Source: Zobellia galactanivorans
Lineage (GTDB): Bacteria > Bacteroidota > Bacteroidia > Flavobacteriales > Flavobacteriaceae
Assembly (NCBI RefSeq): GCF_000973105.1
Contig: NC_015844.1
Coordinates: forward strand, 3,158,501 to 3,222,500
DNA: 64,000 bases
Reading direction: 5' to 3'
Position 1 is the first letter of the stretch. Each line of letters begins with the position of its first letter. This document shows, one piece after another, positions 6,651 through 16,703 of this stretch. Made by a program: the position numbers and the translations under genes. The notes beneath the pieces were generated by a model. That model was not told the origin of the DNA. It was given only the letters and a program-made list of their open reading frames with translations, and did no database searches.

Positions 6651-6960
6651 TAAATTGGTTGGCAGTGAATTACTAAATCTTCATTTTGTATCGTCTTTGG
6701 GGGAATATTATTTTGTGAGAATAAATATACAATTCTATAATTATACAATTACATAATCTTATGTCTAGAGTTAGCCTTTTAATTTAGTTTAAGTTTTGAC
6801 CTTTATATATTATGATACATCATGAGTGATATTATCCGATTGCTCACAAGTTATACATTTATATGATTCTATAATTACAGAAATCCGTAGTCGCAATAGA
6901 GTTTGTATATTTAGGTAGTCATCTGAAGATAAATTGATATACATCATTTAAATTTAAAAA
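6651..6960. promoter_or_regulatory. AT-rich divergent intergenic region between hsdR and the antitoxin-like gene
   Basis: No gene is seen here. The region must carry promoters for hsdR (minus) and the ParD-like gene (plus). The 12-mer ATTCTATAATTA occurs twice, at 6732-6743 and 6866-6877, in a context suggesting an operator rather than chance, though the stretch is very AT-rich. No clear TAnnTTTG box could be assigned to either gene. Confidence 0.35.
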
Positions 6961-7194
6961 ATGAATATTGAATTAAAAGGGGAGGGCAAGGAGTATATAG
7001 AAAAATTAATATTATCGGGAGCTTATAGAAATATAGATGAAATAATACAAGATGCGCTTCAACTTCATGCGCATCACAGAGAAGGTTTAAAAAAGGGTCT
7101 ATTGGAAAAAATCAATAGTGGATGGAATGGCCCTGATAGTCAGAAATCAATTAACGATATTATCTCCGCAAAAAGAAATACAGAGGGTATTTGA
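6961..7194 (+). CDS. ParD/CopG-like ribbon-helix-helix antitoxin, apparently orphan
   Basis: The 77-residue protein resembles ParD-family antitoxins. A short N-terminal strand (MNIELKGEGKEYIEKLI) and the helix SGAYRNIDEIIQDALQLH form the ribbon-helix-helix DNA-binding fold, and a charged C-terminal tail would be the toxin-binding part. It is the only plus-strand gene in the island. ParD genes are normally followed within a few bases by a ParE toxin, but the next 300 bases contain no open frame of toxin length. It may therefore be an orphan antitoxin, a remnant of a decayed module, or a transcriptional regulator of neighbouring genes. The repeated 12-mer upstream could be its operator. Confidence 0.65.
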   Translation: MNIELKGEGKEYIEKLILSGAYRNIDEIIQDALQLHAHHREGLKKGLLEKINSGWNGPDSQKSINDIISAKRNTEGI

Positions 7195-7503
7195 TAGACA
7201 AAAGGTAATAGCTATAAATTATTCAATATGGGTTAGAATCTAAACCCAAATCTTACCAAAACTAATACTATGAAGTGCGAGGAAAGCTTAACGCATGGAA
7301 GCAAACAAAGATTTGAGATAAGGAATAAAATGACTTAACGAGAATTTTGTGCGGCTGAGAAAGATAAGATTTTTCGACATATATAGTTATCTCCGTCAAA
7401 CCTATCATAACATTCTACTTTAATAAGATTAAAATTATAATCTTTCAGCCTGCATTTTAATAGTCTTTCCATCAGTTTTTCTTACCTATATAACTTCATA
7501 TAT
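7195..7503. other. Intergenic region without a recognisable gene
   Basis: No open frame of note exists on either strand. A ParE toxin would be expected at the left end, just after the ParD-like stop, but every frame is closed by stops within about 15 codons. The region holds one copy of the 27-bp repeat (7348-7374), downstream of the unknown gene that ends at 7504. Confidence 0.6.
7348..7374. repeat. 27-bp direct repeat, copy 1
   Basis: This copy matches 8740-8766 at 24 of 27 positions, with core GCGGCTGAGAAA followed by ATAAGATTT. The two copies are in the same orientation and bracket the SRAP gene and the small gene downstream of it. The role is unknown; a recombination scar, a termination/processing signal or a protein-binding site are all possible. 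Confidence 0.7.
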
Positions 7504-7773
7504 CTATAATTTTCGAACGAGTTCCCAGCCCTCAAAAGGTATTCTTTGCATACCTAAAACGGTCATGAGCTTAAAGCTTCTTCCACTTGGATATGTATAA
7601 TGTAAATCTATATTACCTTCATCCCATTCTATGAAGAAACCATGCATCGTAATGGGTTTGCTCTGTGATAGTCCTGAATCTTTTAAGGCGCAATCATACC
7701 TTTCTTTGCCCAATTCTTTTAGAAGTAGCTTTATAACCTTTAAATCTGTATGACGGAAAACAACTTTGGACAT
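7504..7773 (-). CDS. Small unknown protein downstream of the SRAP gene
   Basis: An 89-residue protein starts with ATG at 7773 (MSKVVFRHTDLKVIKLLLKE). It appears soluble, with an N-terminal helix, then a probable beta-rich part (GFFIEWDEGNIDLHYTYPSGRSF) ending in WELVRKL. No family is recognised. It follows the SRAP gene by 73 bases on the same strand, and the pair is enclosed by two copies of a 27-bp repeat, so it may travel and act with the SRAP protein. Coding status rests on its start, its length in an AT-rich region and its plausible amino-acid composition. Confidence 0.6.
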   Translation of the reverse strand: MSKVVFRHTDLKVIKLLLKELGKERYDCALKDSGLSQSKPITMHGFFIEWDEGNIDLHYTYPSGRSFKLMTVLGMQRIPFEGWELVRKL

Positions 7774-7846
7774 AATCCAAAACTATGGAAAATATCCAAT
7801 TTAATGAATATGGGAGTTCGTTTTTTATTAACAAATTGAAAAATTA

Positions 7847-8569
7847 CTAGAATAAGCTGCCTTGCTCGTTTAGTTCTTGGTAATCAACCTTAGTTATAGC
7901 TAATGGGGTATTAGTGTCTATCTCTCTTTTATATAAATCTCTAGATACTGGATAAGCTTCTATCTCCTTCGTTGTAAAACCTACTTTGGTCAATTCCTTT
8001 ATCCCGTTGGGATTAAGATCGTGCCGTAACCAGTCAGATTCAAATTCAGTATCTAGAATTAAGGGTTGTCTTTTCTTTTTGTTGTGTATTTGTTCGAACT
8101 GTTCATTCGCCGGCATGGTCAAGATGGTACAGCTTAAAAACTCATTATCAATTTCGGTATACAGGCCAGCAAAGTAAAATAAAGAATCATCCATGTAATG
8201 GCAGAAGTAAGGATATGATTTGCCATTTACTTCATGTGGTTCATGAAACCCATCTGCTAGTATCAAACATCTTTTATCGGTTGTGGAATGCTTATAGGTA
8301 TTGGATGTTAATATGGTTTCCGATTTAGCGTTGAGCGTATTGTATTTTTTCTGGAATTCCGGTATATCCTTCATCCCAAATTGAGGAATCAAGCCCCACA
8401 TAGCAGGATAAATGTTTTCTGGCTCATCCATTTTGATAATATATAAATTTGGATGGGTAAAACCATTGGCACGGTAGTAAGGCTTATACTCAAAAGGAAC
8501 TTGAAAACTTTTTCTAGTCATCCTCTCAATTTCCTTTTCCTTTTTCCTTAATGTGGTTGAATAACACAT
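7847..8569 (-). CDS. SOS-response-associated peptidase (SRAP) family protein, YedK/HMCES-like
   Basis: SRAP proteins crosslink to abasic sites in single-stranded DNA through Cys2. The 240-residue protein begins MCYS, giving the required Cys2 after removal of Met1. It keeps the other active-site residues at matching positions: Asn80 in NAKSET, Glu110 in ADGFHE and His162 in IHNKKKRQ. E. coli YedK has Asn75, Glu105 and His160. Lys in NAKSET and His in GFHE are small departures from the usual NARSET and GFYE. On a mobilizable element it could protect single-stranded DNA made during transfer or replication, or defend against host base-excision attack; that role is inference. It starts about 200 bases after the zinc-ribbon gene, with a 27-bp repeat between them. 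Confidence 0.93.
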   Translation of the reverse strand: MCYSTTLRKKEKEIERMTRKSFQVPFEYKPYYRANGFTHPNLYIIKMDEPENIYPAMWGLIPQFGMKDIPEFQKKYNTLNAKSETILTSNTYKHSTTDKRCLILADGFHEPHEVNGKSYPYFCHYMDDSLFYFAGLYTEIDNEFLSCTILTMPANEQFEQIHNKKKRQPLILDTEFESDWLRHDLNPNGIKELTKVGFTTKEIEAYPVSRDLYKREIDTNTPLAITKVDYQELNEQGSLF

Positions 8570-8739
8570 GTTTAAATATAACTATAAATCAACAATCACA
8601 TATTTTTAAATATCACTTTATTGTAATATTATATTATAACATTTAAGGTTTATGTAAAAGTATTTTTAATACAAAATAACATTCATATTCTATATTTTTA
8701 AACCATGTCGTAGACCTGAATATTTTAATATAGCCTAAA

Positions 8740-8766
8740 TGCGCGGCTGAGAAATATAAGATTTCT
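8740..8766. repeat. 27-bp direct repeat, copy 2
   Basis: This copy lies directly beyond the stop codon of the zinc-ribbon gene (8776) and before the SRAP gene. It matches 7348-7374 with three mismatches. Read on the minus strand it contains a small perfect stem (AGAAAT, loop CTTAT, ATTTCT), which is weaker in copy 1, so it could act as a 3' processing or termination element. Confidence 0.7.
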
Positions 8767-8775
8767 GCAGTATAT

Positions 8776-9711
8776 CTAATATTTCCATTTTTTAGTTATA
8801 TCTCCAACGTGCAACGGGCCATCGGGCCTGTTTATGTTTTTAGACTTTAGAATATTATCCGAGGGGGTGATGGAAATCCAAGCATCACCATTTTCCCTGG
8901 GCCATACACTATACGCATAGGCGGTATTCGCTTTAATGAGAATATCCCTATCAAAAGTAACATCATTATAGAAAAGGGCATCATCTGGTGTCCTAACGTT
9001 TCTGTTTTTCACTAATCTAAACCCCATTTCAGGGTGTGCCGGGGAAGTGGATTGATTTGGTGGATTTTGGATACTTAATGAGCTCAAGTAGGATTGAATT
9101 CTTTCTTTTATTCCTTCAGGATGATAAAAATCAATTATATAGTTGTCTTTTTCTCTAAGTAGGTCTATCAATCCATGGTTGTCAGCTTTGTATAATATTC
9201 TCCAATTGTTTTTGTCATTTAGTTTATTCAGCCCGGCAATTAAATGTTTAATAGTTGGAGCTTCAAGCATTTTAAGAATCAGTAACAATTCCTCTGTACT
9301 GAAGTTTTTCCAAGATTGTTCAGAGAGAGCCTGTTCAAATTTTTTGGCTCTAGTCTCCGTAAGTTTAACCTCCATCAATTCCAGTCGTTTTTTTTCGAGT
9401 TCTTCTTTTTTCTTTACACAAGTATCACACTCCCATGAGGGGTTTAAATATCGTTTTGCTTGGGTTTGCGAATTGGTCTTTAGTTCATTTCTTGTTTTAC
9501 AAGAAGAGCATGTAACTGAAATAAGCAAATGGGCACATTCTTGCCCTATTTTAGAAATTTTAAGGGTTGAAAATGGCATGTTTTTGGCGATTTCAGAGGG
9601 TTTTTCTTGGAATAAACCATCTTTTATCAGCCAGTATCGGTTAGTGATTTCAAGTTCTTCAGATGATAAATCATCTTCAAATACTACTTCTATCTGGTAT
9701 TTTTCTTCCAT
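8776..9711 (-). CDS. Zinc-ribbon, coiled-coil protein of unknown function
   Basis: The 311-residue protein starts at ATG 9711 (MEEKYQIEV). A longer frame to 9777 would need a TTG start inside the hairpin element and is unlikely. Two CxxC pairs, CSSC and CDTC about 30 residues apart (about residues 68-100), form a probable zinc ribbon. A charged coiled coil follows (KKKEELEKKRLELMEVKLTE), then a helical middle. A C-terminal part of about 90 residues (DDALFYNDVTFDRDILIKAN, WPRENGDAWISIT) looks like a compact beta domain. There is no signal peptide or membrane segment, and I recognise no family. Its start codon directly follows a run of seven T and a long hairpin, so the upstream element may control it or be its RNA partner. 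Confidence 0.75.
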   Translation of the reverse strand: MEEKYQIEVVFEDDLSSEELEITNRYWLIKDGLFQEKPSEIAKNMPFSTLKISKIGQECAHLLISVTCSSCKTRNELKTNSQTQAKRYLNPSWECDTCVKKKEELEKKRLELMEVKLTETRAKKFEQALSEQSWKNFSTEELLLILKMLEAPTIKHLIAGLNKLNDKNNWRILYKADNHGLIDLLREKDNYIIDFYHPEGIKERIQSYLSSLSIQNPPNQSTSPAHPEMGFRLVKNRNVRTPDDALFYNDVTFDRDILIKANTAYAYSVWPRENGDAWISITPSDNILKSKNINRPDGPLHVGDITKKWKY

Positions 9712-9737: not shown

Positions 9738-9851
9738 GGAACCAGAGGTATCGCCAGACACCCAGACTACCAAACAAGAACAGCCCACGCAGAACGTGGG
9801 CGTCTTGGCTTTGATATTGGTAGTCCTTAAAACTGGCGATTTTCTAGTCCC
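9738..9851 (-). ncRNA. Long hairpin element, candidate structured RNA or leader of the zinc-ribbon gene
   Basis: Nested pairing spans 114 bases: 9738-9746 with 9843-9851, 9750-9757 with 9833-9840, 9765-9773 with 9817-9825, 9774-9778 with 9803-9807, and a terminal 7-bp stem 9783-9789 with 9795-9801. That is about 38 pairs. In the outermost helix two positions pair as G-U only if the minus strand is the RNA; on the plus strand they would be A-C mismatches. This favours a minus-strand transcript. It is more GC-rich than its flanks. On the minus strand, CCACGC then TTTTTTT follows immediately before the ATG at 9711. That CCACGC can pair alternatively with GCGTGG in the apical stem, the logic of an attenuator. 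Alternatives are an origin of transfer, a partition site or a single-strand origin of the plasmid. Confidence 0.6.
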
Positions 9852-9950: not shown

Positions 9951-10184
9951 CTACCTCGATTTGTTTAGGTAATTAAGAATGCTTTCGTTGATGATAGCTT
10001 TAAGGCTTTTGTCATCTTCGATTGCTCTAGATTTTAATTGTTTTAAAATGGTCTTATCAATGTAAAAGGAAAATTGTTTTTCGTTATTCGATTGTACTTT
10101 TTCAGGAACAATTTTTTGAATGGTTTTCTTAGGTTGGGAAGCCCTTGCTTGGGCTATCAAACTATCAAATTCTGATTTTGCCAT
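9951..10184 (-). CDS. Ribbon-helix-helix protein, probable ParB-like partner of ParA
   Basis: A 77-residue protein starts at ATG 10184. It has a basic, flexible N-terminus (SLIAQARASQPKKTIQK) and a C-terminal ribbon-helix-helix segment: the strand KQFSFYIDKTILKQL, then helices around RAIEDDKSLKAIINESILNYL. Small RHH proteins encoded just after a short ParA are typical centromere-binding partners of type Ib plasmid partition systems. The gene begins 51 bases after the parA stop, on the same strand. Its flexible N-terminus would stimulate the ParA ATPase and the RHH part would bind the centromere and its own promoter. The centromere site itself is not identified; the hairpin element just downstream is one candidate. 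Confidence 0.75.
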   Translation of the reverse strand: MAKSEFDSLIAQARASQPKKTIQKIVPEKVQSNNEKQFSFYIDKTILKQLKSRAIEDDKSLKAIINESILNYLNKSR

Positions 10185-10234
10185 AGTATGGTTTTATTAT
10201 GATTACACAGTTCTATATTTATATAATTATAGAT

Positions 10235-10819
10235 TTATATAAGTGAAGTCAAAACTTCTTTTGTTAAGCTATCCATTTGTTTTTGTGCCTTATTGTTTTC
10301 TAAAACCCCCTGTAATAAGGTAGATCTAGTGAATGCCACTAGGTCGCTAATTTTAGTCTGGGCTATTTTTATCTGAAACGTCGATAGGCTTTTAAGAATA
10401 TCGTCGGTAAGAGTGGTATTTGGCTTAATCATGTTTAGGACAATCATACTATTAGTTTTTTTTCCTTGCTCTGCTATTAGGCTGATAGTGCTATCAATCG
10501 CTAAAAGATCCAGGATGCCGGCTTTAGTTGGAATCAAAATTAAATCCGCTACTTGTAGTAATGATTTTAGTTGTTTTGATAGATACGGAGGGGTGTCAAC
10601 AAAAACAAAATCCAATTCTTGGTTTTCAGTTAAGATATTTTGATTCGTAGTTATTTCAAAGCACTCTACCATTTTGGAAATTTGAGCCAAACTTCCTTGA
10701 ACATCCATGTCCAAAATAGCAACCTTTGAATGTTCACTTAAATTTTGTGCCAAATTAAAAGTCAAGGTGCTTTTACCTACTCCACCTTTTTGATGGGTAA
10801 TTAGTATAATTTTTGCCAT
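10235..10819 (-). CDS. parA: ParA-family partition ATPase
   Basis: This 194-residue ATPase positions plasmid copies before division. The deviant Walker A motif KGGVGKST lies at residues 11-18 within MAKIILITHQKGGVGKSTLT. Walker A' is seen as VAILDMDVQGSLAQ, and Walker B as LDFVFVDTPPYL. The protein lacks the N-terminal DNA-binding domain of large ParA proteins, so it is of the short type Ib kind that pairs with an RHH partner, and the next gene encodes one. It follows the one-TM protein gene by two bases in a tight operon with the mobilization genes. Retaining a partition system in an integrated element suggests that it can exist as a free plasmid or did so recently. Confidence 0.92.
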   Translation of the reverse strand: MAKIILITHQKGGVGKSTLTFNLAQNLSEHSKVAILDMDVQGSLAQISKMVECFEITTNQNILTENQELDFVFVDTPPYLSKQLKSLLQVADLILIPTKAGILDLLAIDSTISLIAEQGKKTNSMIVLNMIKPNTTLTDDILKSLSTFQIKIAQTKISDLVAFTRSTLLQGVLENNKAQKQMDSLTKEVLTSLI

Positions 10820-10821
10820 AC

Positions 10822-11271
10822 CTAGTTTCTATTTGTGTTCCATTTTAAGTATTTATCCTTGGCCTCCGGATACTCTTCAAAAAAATTTTTAAAGTGATGC
10901 ATTGCTTCTTTTTGACCTTTTTCATAATAGTTAAAGTTAGCGTCAGAGCTTACCTTTATCTCGTAAATTGAATAGCTCACTAAACAAAAGGTGAATAGTA
11001 ATACGGAACTTAGTAGTACTAGTAACCATCTTGGATAATGGTTTGACTTGGACAGATTTTTAGTTAATTGCGAAATTTTAGTATGTTGTTCTCTAAGAAC
11101 TATGTCTTGGCTCTTTACAAACGAATTCAAAACTGAACTCATTTCGGTCATATCTGGTGATAGCTGAGTCATTTTAAGTTCATGGGAGAGATGCTTCATT
11201 TTTTCCAGTTGTAGCTTGAAATCGCTTAATTCCTCTACTAGTAATTCCGCTATGTCGTCAATTTTTGCCAT
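10822..11271 (-). CDS. Mobilization-operon protein with one transmembrane helix, function unknown
   Basis: The 149-residue protein has a helical, coiled-coil-prone N-terminal half (residues 1-78). A single hydrophobic segment follows (about 82-103, WLLVLLSSVLLFTFCLVSYS), then a short charged C-terminal domain (GQKEAMHHFKNFFEEYPEAK). It is squeezed between the relaxase gene and parA with 2-base gaps. Membrane-anchored helical proteins in this position are common in Bacteroidota mobilization operons and may tether the relaxase complex to the host transfer channel. That role is inferred from context only. Confidence 0.75.
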   Translation of the reverse strand: MAKIDDIAELLVEELSDFKLQLEKMKHLSHELKMTQLSPDMTEMSSVLNSFVKSQDIVLREQHTKISQLTKNLSKSNHYPRWLLVLLSSVLLFTFCLVSYSIYEIKVSSDANFNYYEKGQKEAMHHFKNFFEEYPEAKDKYLKWNTNRN

Positions 11272-11273
11272 GG

Positions 11274-12125
11274 TTATATACTTAGTCCTTTGTTAGTTAT
11301 TTGTTGATTGGATTGCTGTTTAGTATTTGCAATGAAATTTGCACCTAATTCAACCACTTTGTTTGAAATTAGAGTCGTCTTGCTTCCATTCTGCAGTATA
11401 TGGCCATTCCCCGCTATAGCATTGGTAATTTTGCCACCACTCATGGACCGATGTATTTCACTGCCTTTTAAGCTGATGTTTTTATATTTGAATCTGAATC
11501 CTTGAAGTTTATTACTCTTGTTGATACTAGGAATTACATCAATACCTCTCAGTTTCATCTTTTTTATATAATCATCAAGGGTTTTAGGCGAGTTTTTTCT
11601 TAGTACATGTTCGCTTAAATTGTGTATTTCTCTTCTTATTTGTTTGAGAGAATTAAGCTTTTCCACTTGAATTTCTTGAGCGGTTTTTAAATTCATTTCT
11701 AATGCAACCTGTCTAGCTGCTTCGATGCTTCGTTTTCCTATAAATCCATCAGGATAGGCTTTACCCTTAAAATCAATTCTATTTACGTACAAATGAATAT
11801 GGGTGTGTGCTTTGTCCTTATGAACAAAAGCTACTGCTTGACGATTGTTCAAATTCATTCGAGCTAGAAACTTTTTTGCTATGTCACCGAGATTTTTCTT
11901 TTTTAATTTTTTGCCATCTTCTATGGTTGGACTTAAGACAAAGCTGAGAGTATTCTTTTTGCAATTTTCATTCATGTCCTGAATGATGTGAAATTCCCTG
12001 GTTAGCTCTTCTGGGGTATTGCCGGCTAGATATTCTTTTAAAACTACGATAGCGCTTTTTTCTTGGTTCCATCCATACGCCATAGAGGCACTAGTATGTG
12101 AGATGGATTTTCCTTTACCGATCAT
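11274..12125 (-). CDS. mobA: Relaxase / mobilization nuclease (HUH family)
   Basis: The relaxase nicks the origin of transfer and pilots the single strand into the recipient. The 283-residue protein has the metal-binding histidine cluster H102-K-D104-x-x-H107-T-H109-I-H111 followed by LYVNRID, the hallmark of the Relaxase (MobA/VirD2, MOBP-like) domain. The catalytic tyrosine is probably Tyr17 in SMAYGWN. At 283 residues it is little more than the nuclease domain, with no helicase or primase fused, as is usual for mobilizable rather than self-conjugative elements. The start overlaps the upstream mobC-like stop by four bases. No coupling protein or type IV secretion genes are present, so transfer would depend on a helper element. 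Confidence 0.92.
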   Translation of the reverse strand: MIGKGKSISHTSASMAYGWNQEKSAIVVLKEYLAGNTPEELTREFHIIQDMNENCKKNTLSFVLSPTIEDGKKLKKKNLGDIAKKFLARMNLNNRQAVAFVHKDKAHTHIHLYVNRIDFKGKAYPDGFIGKRSIEAARQVALEMNLKTAQEIQVEKLNSLKQIRREIHNLSEHVLRKNSPKTLDDYIKKMKLRGIDVIPSINKSNKLQGFRFKYKNISLKGSEIHRSMSGGKITNAIAGNGHILQNGSKTTLISNKVVELGANFIANTKQQSNQQITNKGLSI

Positions 12126-12532
12126 TTTTTGAAATTGTTTAAGTGTTCTCTAATTTCTTTGGCCAATGCATAAACCTCGGAAGTCAATTTTGGATTTTGT
12201 TTTCTGTACATATTACCTATCAAAGTGAAATTCCGGCTATAGGTAGAAAGCATTTTGTAGACTTCAATTTCTTCATCTGTAAGGCGTGCAGTAATTTCTT
12301 TATTAAATGCTGCTCTAAAACAAAATTCACTGAGGGAGAGTCCCGATTTTTTAGCTCTTATTTTCAATAGCTTTTTCTCGTAAATCGTACTTCTGAACTT
12401 GGTGACAACTCTTTCTTTTTTCTTCATTGGTTCTTTTTTTATTTTGCGACCATCGGGAGAAAAATCAAGATTGTGGGCCCAGCACACACATCTTGAACTC
12501 TTACTCAAAATCATTTTTTTATTTTTGCTCAA
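12122..12532 (-). CDS. mobC: MobC-like relaxosome accessory protein
   Basis: The 136-residue protein is basic, with a lysine-rich N-terminus (KKEPMKKKERVVTKFRST). A ribbon-helix-helix-like segment follows (KKLLKIRAKKSGLSLSEFCF), then the C-terminal helices typical of MobC/BmgB proteins that bind the origin of transfer and help the relaxase nick. It overlaps the relaxase gene by four bases downstream and the primase gene by fourteen bases upstream, a strongly coupled arrangement. The nearby origin of transfer is not obvious; it is usually close to mobC. The first two cysteines (CVCW) near residue 15 are probably incidental. Confidence 0.8.
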   Translation of the reverse strand: MSKNKKMILSKSSRCVCWAHNLDFSPDGRKIKKEPMKKKERVVTKFRSTIYEKKLLKIRAKKSGLSLSEFCFRAAFNKEITARLTDEEIEVYKMLSTYSRNFTLIGNMYRKQNPKLTSEVYALAKEIREHLNNFKK

Positions 12533-13352
12533 CCCACCATTCGTTCAAGTCATTATAGCCTTGGTAAAAACTTGAACAGTCATGATAATTGAGTTCTTTG
12601 GTTACGAATTTTTCAGTGATTGTACGGCCTGTTTCATCTTGGTCTAAATAGAGATTTATGGTGTTGTACTTGTCTGCATAAGCATTTAATTTGCTAGCGA
12701 AAGAACAAGAATTTAGGATTAATAAGTCCGCCTTTTGTAATATTGAACTATCTAGCGATATTAAAGAGAGCATATCAAACATACCCTCAGTAACCACCAG
12801 AGAATTATGTCCATTTTGAATCAATGAGATATCCTTAGGTGAAGAACCTGATTTGAAGTATTTATTTCTCAGATCATATCCTCCGGAAATGTTCTCAACA
12901 CCTATTGAAAAATATTCTTTTGAATGATTTGAATAGTGTACTTCTTTACATATTTTTCTCGCAATTTTTAAAGGTATTCTCCTTTGATTTAAATAAGCTA
13001 TAAGTCCTAAATGCTGAATATCAATTACAGAAGTAATATTTATTTTGGTATCGTATATGTGTTTAAAACTTGGTTGCTGGTGAAAAGAGAAGGTGTCGCT
13101 TGAAAGTTTTTGCAAAACTTCGGAAATAGAACACCTGTAAAATTTTTGCAAAAAATCAATTATTGTGCCACGGGAGCCTGTACCATAATCGTACCAGCAG
13201 TTTTTATTAGTATTAATTTTAAACGAAGCAATTTTTTCTCCTCGAAATGGCGATATGTACCATTTGTCATATCCCCTTGTCTTTTGAGGTTCAAAGCCAA
13301 GTTTTTTTAAATATGAAACCATGTCTATTTTTTTAGCTTTTTGGCAATTCAT
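12519..13352 (-). CDS. Plasmid primase-like protein (DnaG-type CHC2-like and Toprim domains)
   Basis: The 277-residue protein has an N-terminal segment resembling the DnaG zinc-binding domain (WYISPFRGEKIASFKINT, then WYDYGTGSRGTIIDFL). A Toprim fold follows, with the conserved glutamate in LVVTEGMFDML (about residue 195) and the acidic motif LYLDQDETGR (about 235-244). The canonical CHC2 zinc cysteines are missing, although the surrounding fold signature persists. Such short primases are common on Bacteroidota mobilizable elements and prime replication of the transferred strand or of the plasmid. The gene overlaps the mobC-like gene by fourteen bases. A typical DnaG would also carry a helicase-binding domain, which is absent. 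Confidence 0.85.
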   Translation of the reverse strand: MNCQKAKKIDMVSYLKKLGFEPQKTRGYDKWYISPFRGEKIASFKINTNKNCWYDYGTGSRGTIIDFLQKFYRCSISEVLQKLSSDTFSFHQQPSFKHIYDTKINITSVIDIQHLGLIAYLNQRRIPLKIARKICKEVHYSNHSKEYFSIGVENISGGYDLRNKYFKSGSSPKDISLIQNGHNSLVVTEGMFDMLSLISLDSSILQKADLLILNSCSFASKLNAYADKYNTINLYLDQDETGRTITEKFVTKELNYHDCSSFYQGYNDLNEWWVEQK

Positions 13353-13479
13353 TTCTTTTATTTTTGACTAGCAAATATTTATTGCTGTTTTAACTTCTGT
13401 TTTTTTCCATTTTCATTTTTTTACAGTAGTATTTTAGTATGCTCTGAAGCCTTTATGTCAATGGGCTCACAGATAAATG

Positions 13480-13727
13480 TATGAGGGTGTGTCCTTAACG
13501 AAAAGTGAGGGTGCATCCTTAATGAAGGGGGAGGGTGTATCCTTAATAGGTGAGGGTACATCCTTAATGAGTGAGGTAAAATTTTGCTGATTTTTATCAA
13601 AAGTGAGGGTGCATCCTTAATTGGTGAGGGTACATCCTTAATAAGTGAGTGCATATCCTTAATAGGTGAGGGTACATCCTTAATAGGTGAGGTTGTATCC
13701 TTAATAAGTGAGTGATGAATAAGTATT
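13480..13727. repeat. Iteron array: nine 21-bp direct repeats, probable plasmid origin
   Basis: The consensus is RGTGAGGGTRCATCCTTAATA. Well-formed copies start at about 13480, 13504, 13528, 13549, 13602, 13623, 13644, 13665 and 13686, with degenerate copies at 13570 and 13707. From 13602 the period is exactly 21 bp, two helical turns. Between the two blocks the copy at 13570-13600 is replaced by AT-rich sequence, a possible unwinding site. The array lies just downstream of the initiator gene. Iterons of about 20 bp beside a Rep_3 gene are the usual origin of theta-replicating plasmids. Confidence 0.88.
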
Positions 13728-13749
13728 TCAGTTTTTACCAAAGTTGTAA

Positions 13750-14841
13750 TCATGATATTTTATTTAGCTCCTTAAATAGATTCTTATATAAAAAACCTGA
13801 TATGTTTTTTATTTCGCTCTGTTTAACTTTATCGTAATATTTCGCGGTTTGATTTTGGCCGAATGTACTTCTCTGGATGTTTTCCATCCATCTTTTTTTC
13901 ATCTCCCCTGAACCAATTCTATTAATTAAATAAATGACTTGAGTTTCATCTAGTCCAAGTCCTTTGAAAAACTCTAAGCAGCTTAGCTCTTCTTTGTTGA
14001 GCTCATGCTTTAAAGGTTTAAATCGAAATTCAATATGAGATATTCTTCTACCTTTTTTAAATTTTCTATTTATTCTTAATTCTTTAATATCCTTACATTT
14101 TTCTGAGTTTATCCATTGAATTGCTGGCTTTAGGAAGTCTCTTTCGAAATAGCTAAACTTGGGTTGTTTGTCTTTAAACTCATAGTTTTTTTCAGGGATA
14201 AAAATAAGTTTGAGCTGGTCTTCAGGGGTTAGAGTTGTTTTCAATTCTTTGTCTATGATTTCTATATATCCTAAAATCATTTTAAGCTCTATTACGGCTA
14301 TTATGCAAAATCCGGTATTCTTAAATTGTGATAGTATTTCGTAAAATTTTTTTCGTCTTGCTCCCCGAATTTTGAATACAGAGTTTTCAATTTGCGTAAA
14401 TCCATTTTGTTTTTGAACTTTTCCTACGGGTGTTATTTCATTGATGTACTGAATAAGTTTTTCTTTATAGAAGAAGATTTTTCCAAAACGAGCTAATTCT
14501 ATCTTTAACGTATCAGGACTGTCAGGATCTACTTGAACATTGTCCACGATATTAAATGCGATAAAAGACCTCTCAATCTTATTGTAAAAAGCTCCTCCCA
14601 CATTTTTAACTTCATTAGTAAATTTGTAAAATTCAGAAAATGAATATGTGTCGTTTTTTGAAGTGCTTTTTGCATCAATATAATCGTTGAGTGAAATTTT
14701 AATAACACTTTTGGGTTTGCCAAAAAAATCTATTTTACTTTGAATTAGATAAACAATGTCCTTATGTATTTCTTTATCTAACTTGAAAAGACTTCTAGTA
14801 AAAAAGTTTGCTTGATTAAGCTGCTTATTTCGTAATTCCAT
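13750..14841 (-). CDS. rep: Rep_3-type plasmid replication initiator
   Basis: The 363-residue protein starts at ATG 14841 (MELRNKQLNQANFFTRSLF) and shows the two-winged-helix layout of iteron-binding initiators. The first winged helix covers about 15-150 (HKDIVYLIQSKID, SFSEFYKFTNEV). The second covers about 160-300 (ARRKKFYEILSQFKNTGF, FERDFLKPAIQWINSEKCKD, the latter typical of the Rep_3 DNA-contact helix). A C-terminal extension of about 60 residues is specific to this protein. The 21-bp iteron array directly after the gene supports the assignment. Initiators of this type bind iterons as monomers and repress their own promoter as dimers. Integration would leave this origin silent or under host control. 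Confidence 0.88.
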   Translation of the reverse strand: MELRNKQLNQANFFTRSLFKLDKEIHKDIVYLIQSKIDFFGKPKSVIKISLNDYIDAKSTSKNDTYSFSEFYKFTNEVKNVGGAFYNKIERSFIAFNIVDNVQVDPDSPDTLKIELARFGKIFFYKEKLIQYINEITPVGKVQKQNGFTQIENSVFKIRGARRKKFYEILSQFKNTGFCIIAVIELKMILGYIEIIDKELKTTLTPEDQLKLIFIPEKNYEFKDKQPKFSYFERDFLKPAIQWINSEKCKDIKELRINRKFKKGRRISHIEFRFKPLKHELNKEELSCLEFFKGLGLDETQVIYLINRIGSGEMKKRWMENIQRSTFGQNQTAKYYDKVKQSEIKNISGFLYKNLFKELNKIS

Positions 14842-16304: not shown

Positions 16305-16307
16305 GTG

Positions 16308-16703
16308 TGGAGCCGGAGGGATTCGAACCCTCGTCCAAACAAGCAATAACAGAGCTTTCTACATGTTTAGTTTCCGCTTGGTTTTCGATGTATACCTGAC
16401 CGGAAACGGCCTAATATACACTTAGCTTCTTAAGGTTTTGGTGCCACTACCGAAGCAATAGTGGCCTTATGTTGACTTTTCTGGTGCCTCTAGATGAACC
16501 GCCGCCAACAAGGGCTGTTCAGAGACATCTCGCTTTCCGACCTGGTCGGAACGAGGCTAAATCCTACTATAATTCAGATTAAGCGGCAAGAGCGTAATTA
16601 TTTTCGCCAATTAAAAGTGTGAAGTATGATATTAACGAGCTGTACCCCAGCGCTCGACATGCTTACAATGCCATTGGTCTCGCTGTCAAAACCAGTCGGC
16701 CCC
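16308..16703 (-). ncRNA. ssrA: Transfer-messenger RNA (tmRNA)
   Basis: The RNA rescues stalled ribosomes and tags truncated proteins for degradation, together with SmpB. The 5' end GGGGCCGA (from 16703) pairs with the 3' end CGGCTCCA (to 16308) to form the tRNA-like acceptor stem. A T-arm with GGTTCGAATCC is clear near the 3' end. An internal frame encodes the tag GENNYALAA followed by TAA, typical of Bacteroidota. The length of about 396 nt is in the normal range. CCA is not fully encoded after the discriminator A. The 3' end is the boundary between AT-rich island and chromosome, and ssrA 3' ends are common integration targets. Confidence 0.97.
16579..16608 (-). other. tmRNA tag-peptide reading frame
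   Basis: The resume codon GGC starts the frame GGC-GAA-AAT-AAT-TAC-GCT-CTT-GCC-GCT-TAA, giving the proteolysis tag GENNYALAA. The C-terminal ALAA is the degron recognised by ClpXP-type proteases. Confidence 0.95.

Follow-up and report, generated by a model that had tools for sequence, protein, structure and literature searches.

Hairpin arms as a proposed boundary element beside an SRAP gene and a small gene with an SOS operator in a mobilizable element of Zobellia galactanivorans

Two 27-bp direct repeats in the chromosome of Zobellia galactanivorans enclose a gene of the SRAP (YedK/HMCES) family and a gene for a protein of 89 amino acids, here called u89. We addressed what these repeats mark, and why the two genes lie together, by analyzing the window, that is, the whole stretch of 64,000 nucleotides around them, and by comparing it with related genomes. 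We proposed, with a probability of about 0.6, that the region carries, as exchangeable cargo, an SOS-inducible module for lesion tolerance, that the repeats are 3' arms of a hairpin boundary element, and that the arm edge is the joint of the cargo.

The carrier element at ssrA

The first-pass annotation had taken the carrier for a mobilizable plasmid, which was wrong: the contig is the chromosome, of 5,521,712 bases, and the SRAP-u89 region is an integrated mobilizable element at ssrA, the tmRNA gene. The following features concern the carrier.

6961-7194, plus strand: ParD-like antitoxin (TIGR02606, 37.9 bits, below the curated cut-off of 46.2)
8776-9711, minus strand: up333, 311 amino acids from ATG, function-unassigned, part of the exchanged region
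10235-14841, minus strand: element backbone (ParA, DUF6730, relaxase, NikA-like, primase-like, a small ORF and Rep3-like)
16306-16319, plus strand: right att repeat TGTGGAGCCGGAGG, at the tmRNA 3' end

The tmRNA lies at 16307-16703, and its 3' end is the right end of the element. The left att copy, consisting of 14 bp of the tmRNA end, was found outside the window (L015:14907), beyond a tyrosine integrase (PF00589) that lies 3.7-4.9 kb to the left of the window; from this position of the left copy, the element is about 21.4 kb long. Type I restriction genes are also inside it. An integrase, a relaxase and att repeats at a tRNA or tmRNA gene, by which integrative mobilizable elements are recognized, were thus all found. 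The element resembles the integrative mobilizable elements at ssrA in its tyrosine integrase, relaxase, NikA-like gene and 14-bp repeat at the tmRNA 3' end; it differs from them in having Rep3 and ParA genes of plasmid type together with a repeat array, and in having its cargo edges marked by a hairpin (hairpin B, below). The same element was observed in another genome of the genus (G764), also at the tmRNA. The up333 protein showed 44-45% identity to its relatives in G764 and in a further genus genome, G774, and most neighboring element genes of G764 showed at least 90%.

Several smaller features were observed along the element. The ParD-like antitoxin has no recognized ParE-like neighbor, and a relative at 82% lies by the hairpin unit in G764. 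An array of repeats of about 21 bp (13474-13712), similar to plasmid iterons, is located just 3' of the Rep3-like gene (13750-14841) and within the small ORF (13421-13753). AT-rich repeats at 6726-6892 and 10204-10244, one of which adjoins the gene downstream of ParA, may be bound by a protein for partition or copy control. A strong stem-loop with arms GCCCACG and CGTGGGC around the loop CAGAA (9783-9801) lies between up333 and the gene at 9951-10184 and is conserved in G764.

Hairpin arms mark the edges of the cargo

The repeats and the elements around them are as follows.

7232-7374, plus strand: conserved unit of about 143 bp, with motif A at about 7245-7282 followed by hairpin B
7287-7368, plus strand: hairpin B, 82 nt, imperfect (covariance model R1, 102 bits)
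7348-7374, plus strand: repeat copy 1, the 3' arm of hairpin B plus 6 bp
7374-7375, no strand: breakpoint at which the repeat meets the u82 remnant, placed to within one or two bases
7374-7499, minus strand: u82 remnant, limited to the first 42 codons and interrupted in frame by a stop at codon 6
8740-8766, plus strand: repeat copy 2, a lone arm, 171 bp upstream of the SRAP start and immediately 3' of the up333 gene

The repeat pair is present as annotated, with 24 of 27 bases identical and with the SRAP gene (7847-8569, minus strand) and the 89-residue gene (7504-7773, minus strand) between the copies. By chance none was expected: the repeat had no match in 100 dinucleotide shuffles of the 64-kb window, and none of 100 Markov copies of the 3-kb region held such a pair. 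The genome search that the first-pass annotation suggested returned only the two window copies at up to three mismatches, and the reversed pattern returned none. The two are not equal elements, however, because copy 1 is only the end of the conserved unit of about 143 bp; in addition, copy 2 gave no match to covariance model R1.

The conserved unit was common to four sites in three genomes of the genus and was found, whole or in pieces, in 30 of 397 genomes of the family; the three SRAP-side repeat copies have a common core and the SRAP upstream region. Across 14 sequences, 95.3% of the cells in the hairpin B alignment paired, and 7 of 20 pairs were altered on both sides. Neither the pairing nor the count of changes on both sides was reached by any of 500 shuffles, which do not keep the relatedness of the sequences, and the alignment under test had itself supplied part of the structure, the outer stem of which was added by hand. 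Alignment A2 excluded L078 and L083, each with half of the motif, and the second copy in L073. When folded as single-strand DNA, the window's own unit was no better than shuffles (z of -0.13 and 0.10); hairpin B therefore rests on covariation and not on energy. With model R1, 27 sites were detected in 19 of 149 sampled Flavobacteriaceae genomes, usually one per genome. Covariation, recurrence, differing cargo past the arm, and homology that ends at its outer edge (see below) support the hairpin arms as a boundary element.

Several familiar explanations of the repeats were rejected. That they are transcript-end signals, as had been suggested, is contradicted by the terminator search, in which neither repeat had a terminator-like site or any excess over shuffles. 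A XerCD/dif module was also dropped: a dif-like 28-mer gave at least 106 matches compared with 196 for the reversed control, and the repeats were not among the matches listed. At the gathering score, Rfam recognized only the tmRNA in the window, with hairpin B unmatched, and across 13 loci (E up to 1) only a tRNA; a known RNA family for hairpin B was ruled out on this basis. A search of the literature by titles and abstract starts, covering few subscription papers, returned none treating hairpin B or u89.

The contents between the arms differed among the three elements. Between the arms of G774 lie SRAP, u89, an 82-amino-acid gene (u82) and other genes, over about 5.2 kb. In G764, a degenerate arm is followed by an SRAP pseudogene, about 12 kb of unrelated genes and a full unit; this full unit is in turn followed by a second SRAP gene with ImuB-like and DnaE-like genes and by another full unit. 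Relatives of u82 lie after u89 in G774 and Kriegella, and in G764 ahead of the ImuB-like and DnaE-like genes, behind two GGA-N5-TCC boxes. In one stretch of G764 (L045:5294-9796), two hairpin units flank genes for SRAP and for DnaE-like, Y-polymerase-like and u82-like proteins, and the u82-like gene is preceded by two GGA-N5-TCC boxes.

The u82 remnant located the joint. It was 82% identical to the DNA of G774 over 136 bp, and the homology ended at 7375, beside the repeat; the arm edge is therefore a breakpoint. Since the u82 gene of G774 has no arm at that point, the joint was not made by arm-to-arm homology. In addition, the flanks of seven repeat copies fell into two kinds on the left and six on the right, with the right flanks diverging at the arm edge. 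Both observations count against a doubtful, if still serious, possibility, namely that the arms are ordinary short homologies, that the cargo is exchanged by RecA among related elements, and that the hairpin, conserved between genes as an RNA or a repeat, serves some other purpose. Such an exchange would be in keeping with the flanking element genes of G764, which at 90-100% identity are similar enough for homologous exchange, with the lack of any recombinase so far tied to hairpin B, and with a hairpin that is mostly single-copy per genome, unlike a busy cassette system. In the exchangeable-cargo reading that we prefer, the outer arm edge would be the joining point for gain and loss of cargo, and homologous recombination between arms is possible for some events.

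The discrete nature of the unit suggested another alternative, a small non-autonomous insertion element (MITE-like) that landed beside the cargo by chance, with one end in u82 and with the SRAP-side arm as a partial copy. We considered this somewhat unlikely. The unit does occur as a discrete segment of about 143 bp at differing places, twice each in G764 and G746, and its right edge is joined to the interior of a gene, as expected of an insertion; however, most genomes hold one copy, and the remainder of u82 is absent beyond the unit, where tblastn matched residues 1-42 only. In G746 (L096:4805-9745), a full hairpin unit lies near a large ORF whose start, by eye, reads like Cas9.

We then asked how far the cassette proposed by the first-pass annotation could be upheld. 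The repeats do mark cargo edges, as seen from the differing contents of three elements and the u82 homology that ends at copy 1. An excisable unit found no support in this genus: the 25-base core of the repeat occurred in three of nine genomes, the same three that carry the relaxase of the element, and all three keep SRAP or an SRAP pseudogene between the arms. The empty locus with a single copy that had been suggested as a check was not found among these nine genomes. What came closest to filled and empty sites was observed in other genera, where a further hairpin, C, often lies beyond hairpin B. In a table of 35 hairpin sites, from which sites re-met through overlapping loci were excluded, 15 held B and C at a distance of 38-175 bp and no intervening ORF of 60 amino acids, several of these being at one chromosomal spot and not independent, and two more held them 410 and 524 bp apart, likewise without such an ORF. 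Two pairs enclosed genes, namely SRAP-UmuC-UmuD in G107 and a SocA-like gene with its neighbor in G028. A second arm replaced C at two sites, the window and G774, and the remaining 14 had no second site within the stretch searched, which was short for some. A recurring island spot was also observed in other Flavobacteriaceae (L127-L129, L092 and L094), where hairpins B and C lie beside DUF6266 and similar function-unassigned genes.

These arrangements invited comparison with integrons. Hairpin B resembles attC in being an imperfect single-strand hairpin, with a folding energy in the window unit that is not significant in itself, and it shares with integron cassettes the position 3' of cargo genes, variable cargo and, in G019, arrays of small genes. 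It differs from them in being usually a single copy per genome and in lacking the R-box pair: RYYYAAC and GTTRRRY were paired in none of the 14 hairpin rows on either strand, and integron attC sites were rejected accordingly. We tentatively raise the unlikely idea that Flavobacteriaceae have an undescribed system of cassette exchange for which hairpins B and C are the recombination sites. In such a system, the folded strand would be cut at the outer edge of the 3' arm and incoming DNA would be joined to it, as in integrons but with other sites and another enzyme, and the cargo would include SRAP-u89-u82 and UmuDC-SRAP. A covarying hairpin that is unmatched in Rfam and borders differing cargo within a large family of marine bacteria may explain how such modules are traded by mobile elements.

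The SRAP-u89 pair and its SOS operator

The cargo of the window consists of the following features.

7504-7773, minus strand: u89, 89 amino acids, a small and new family
7778-7785, minus strand: TAGTTTTG, which we take to fit the Bacteroidetes -7 element TAnnTTTG
7787-7797, minus strand: SOS operator GGATATTTTCC (GGA-N5-TCC), at -24 to -14 of u89, between SRAP and u89
7847-8569, minus strand: SRAP (YedK/HMCES family), 240 amino acids (PF02586, E 1.3e-40)

Transcription of u89 would start at or next to its ATG. The GGA-N5-TCC sequence was present upstream of u89 at all 16 loci, in 14 of them exactly and in two with one mismatch, compared with a chance rate of 0.00055 per shuffled 60-bp stretch. 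It stood exactly at -24 in 13 of the 16; the exceptions were L018 (-29), L019 (-37 and -18) and L031 (-23 of an assumed start). L031, in which the u89 frame is interrupted, was counted for the operator and excluded from structure prediction, and L029, the same locus as L018, was counted once. With at most one mismatch, the combined operator-promoter pattern had four matches in the genome. Two are at the u89 genes; a third lies between a radical-SAM gene and the gene of an HTH-S24 repressor of 254 amino acids (L135:610-1374, about G000:C1:5,190,031-5,190,795), and the fourth is at another radical-SAM gene, taken for SplB-like. At three mismatches the count was 123 compared with 93 for the control, so only the top matches are informative. 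GGA-N5-TCC is a published operator of the Flavobacteriaceae SOS repressor (PMC8565304). The accessible text of that study describes a Bacteroidetes SOS regulon with which the present genome shares the operator, as well as the operator-promoter pattern at the HTH-S24 repressor promoter and radical-SAM genes; u89 is not named in that part of the text. The u89 gene is thus very likely an SOS gene, and we propose it as a new SOS family, whose operator and promoter match the pattern as well as does the SOS repressor's own promoter region.

The neighbors of u89 are consistent across loci. It lies beside SRAP or umuDC at 12 of 16: SRAP is upstream on the same strand at five (the window, L017, L018, L019 and L058) and divergent at one (L027), and umuD and umuC follow u89 at six, all in Maribacter, with a Pfam check in L021 only. 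The other four had neither within the stretch covered. Many u89 loci come from the one genus Maribacter and are not independent; the genome collection held 12 loci, 10 of them Maribacter. In the family sample, u89 was found in 3 of 149 genomes; a phylum sample of 395 genomes returned its own genome only, and phages, plasmids and viral contigs had no match. The host genome has a second SRAP-u89 pair (G000:C1:5299227-5300233; L017:9221-10233), which has the SOS operator but no arms and adjoins a ChlI/Mg-chelatase-like gene ending early in its domain, which suggests an island at this locus. The arms are likewise absent from the pairs at L018 and L019, and none was found at up to six mismatches in L017-L031; the repeat is therefore not part of the SRAP-u89 pair itself. 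The suggestion that the small gene may be a partner gained support from the adjacency to SRAP or umuDC and from the operator at every locus, and u89 is probably a functional partner.

The SRAP protein itself is likely active. PF02586 covers residues 1-212 at 139.7 bits, compared with a cut-off of 27.1, and the residues of the cross-linking site (Cys2 with a conserved Asn, Glu and His), whose roles are given in the accessible part of PMC9436759, were invariant in all eight aligned proteins. In its domain, catalytic residues, and UmuDC and ImuB-like or DnaE-like neighbors, it agrees with the SRAP family in SOS neighborhoods as far as PMC3765255 is available to us. The window SRAP differs in being paired with u89, which lies downstream of it under its own SOS operator and is not among the neighbors described in that portion of the paper.

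The SOS control of u89 and its link with error-prone polymerases point to DNA-damage tolerance as the role of the pair. In the proposed module, the gene for SRAP, which would shield abasic sites, precedes that for the small protein u89, which has an SOS operator and promoter to itself. Upon DNA damage, a LexA-like repressor would leave GGA-N5-TCC and u89 would be made; the protein may then work with SRAP or with error-prone polymerases, so that an abasic or blocked template is tolerated. Because u89 is tied to abasic-site shielding and to error-prone polymerases, a role as a damage-inducible partner of SRAP is testable. An alternative, in line with the guarding of the transfer strand proposed at first pass, is that SRAP-u89 mainly protects the transferred single strand of the element during conjugation. 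The element does have relaxase and NikA-like genes, and abasic sites in single-stranded DNA are the target of SRAP (PMC9436759, as accessible to us); yet u89 also heads umuDC operons in Maribacter under an SOS operator, and SRAP-u89 also occurs in the islands L017-L019, leaving their transfer-gene content aside. We regarded transfer-strand protection as decidedly improbable.

Counting against the proposed module, no SOS operator was detected within 200 bp of the window SRAP or at the UmuD start of L127, and among seven SRAP starts examined only L027 had one. In another genome (L179 of G010), an SRAP gene with four GGA-N5-TCC boxes within 150 bp upstream was observed; some SRAP genes of the family may thus be SOS-controlled themselves.

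The u89 protein was unmatched in Pfam, NCBIfam, PHROGs and PADLOC, and 2 of 12 relatives touched PSP1 at E 0.057. Its fold was predicted with a pLDDT of 82; Foldseek returned best E values of 1.6 (PDB) and 0.54 (BFVD), and VIA-align a best Z of 3.5, with many sliding-clamp rows at Z 2.0-2.5 that are too weak for use. A missing structural match does not mean a new fold. Where SRAP lies directly upstream of u89, four of the five proteins have QGSLF or QGTLF at the C terminus, L017 being the one without, and we take these ends to resemble the beta-clamp-binding motif. A QxxLF end occurred in 3 of 29 ORFs central in the sampled loci, several of them not SRAP and one the window's own, and three more fit a looser pattern, compared with 2 of 661 other ORFs.
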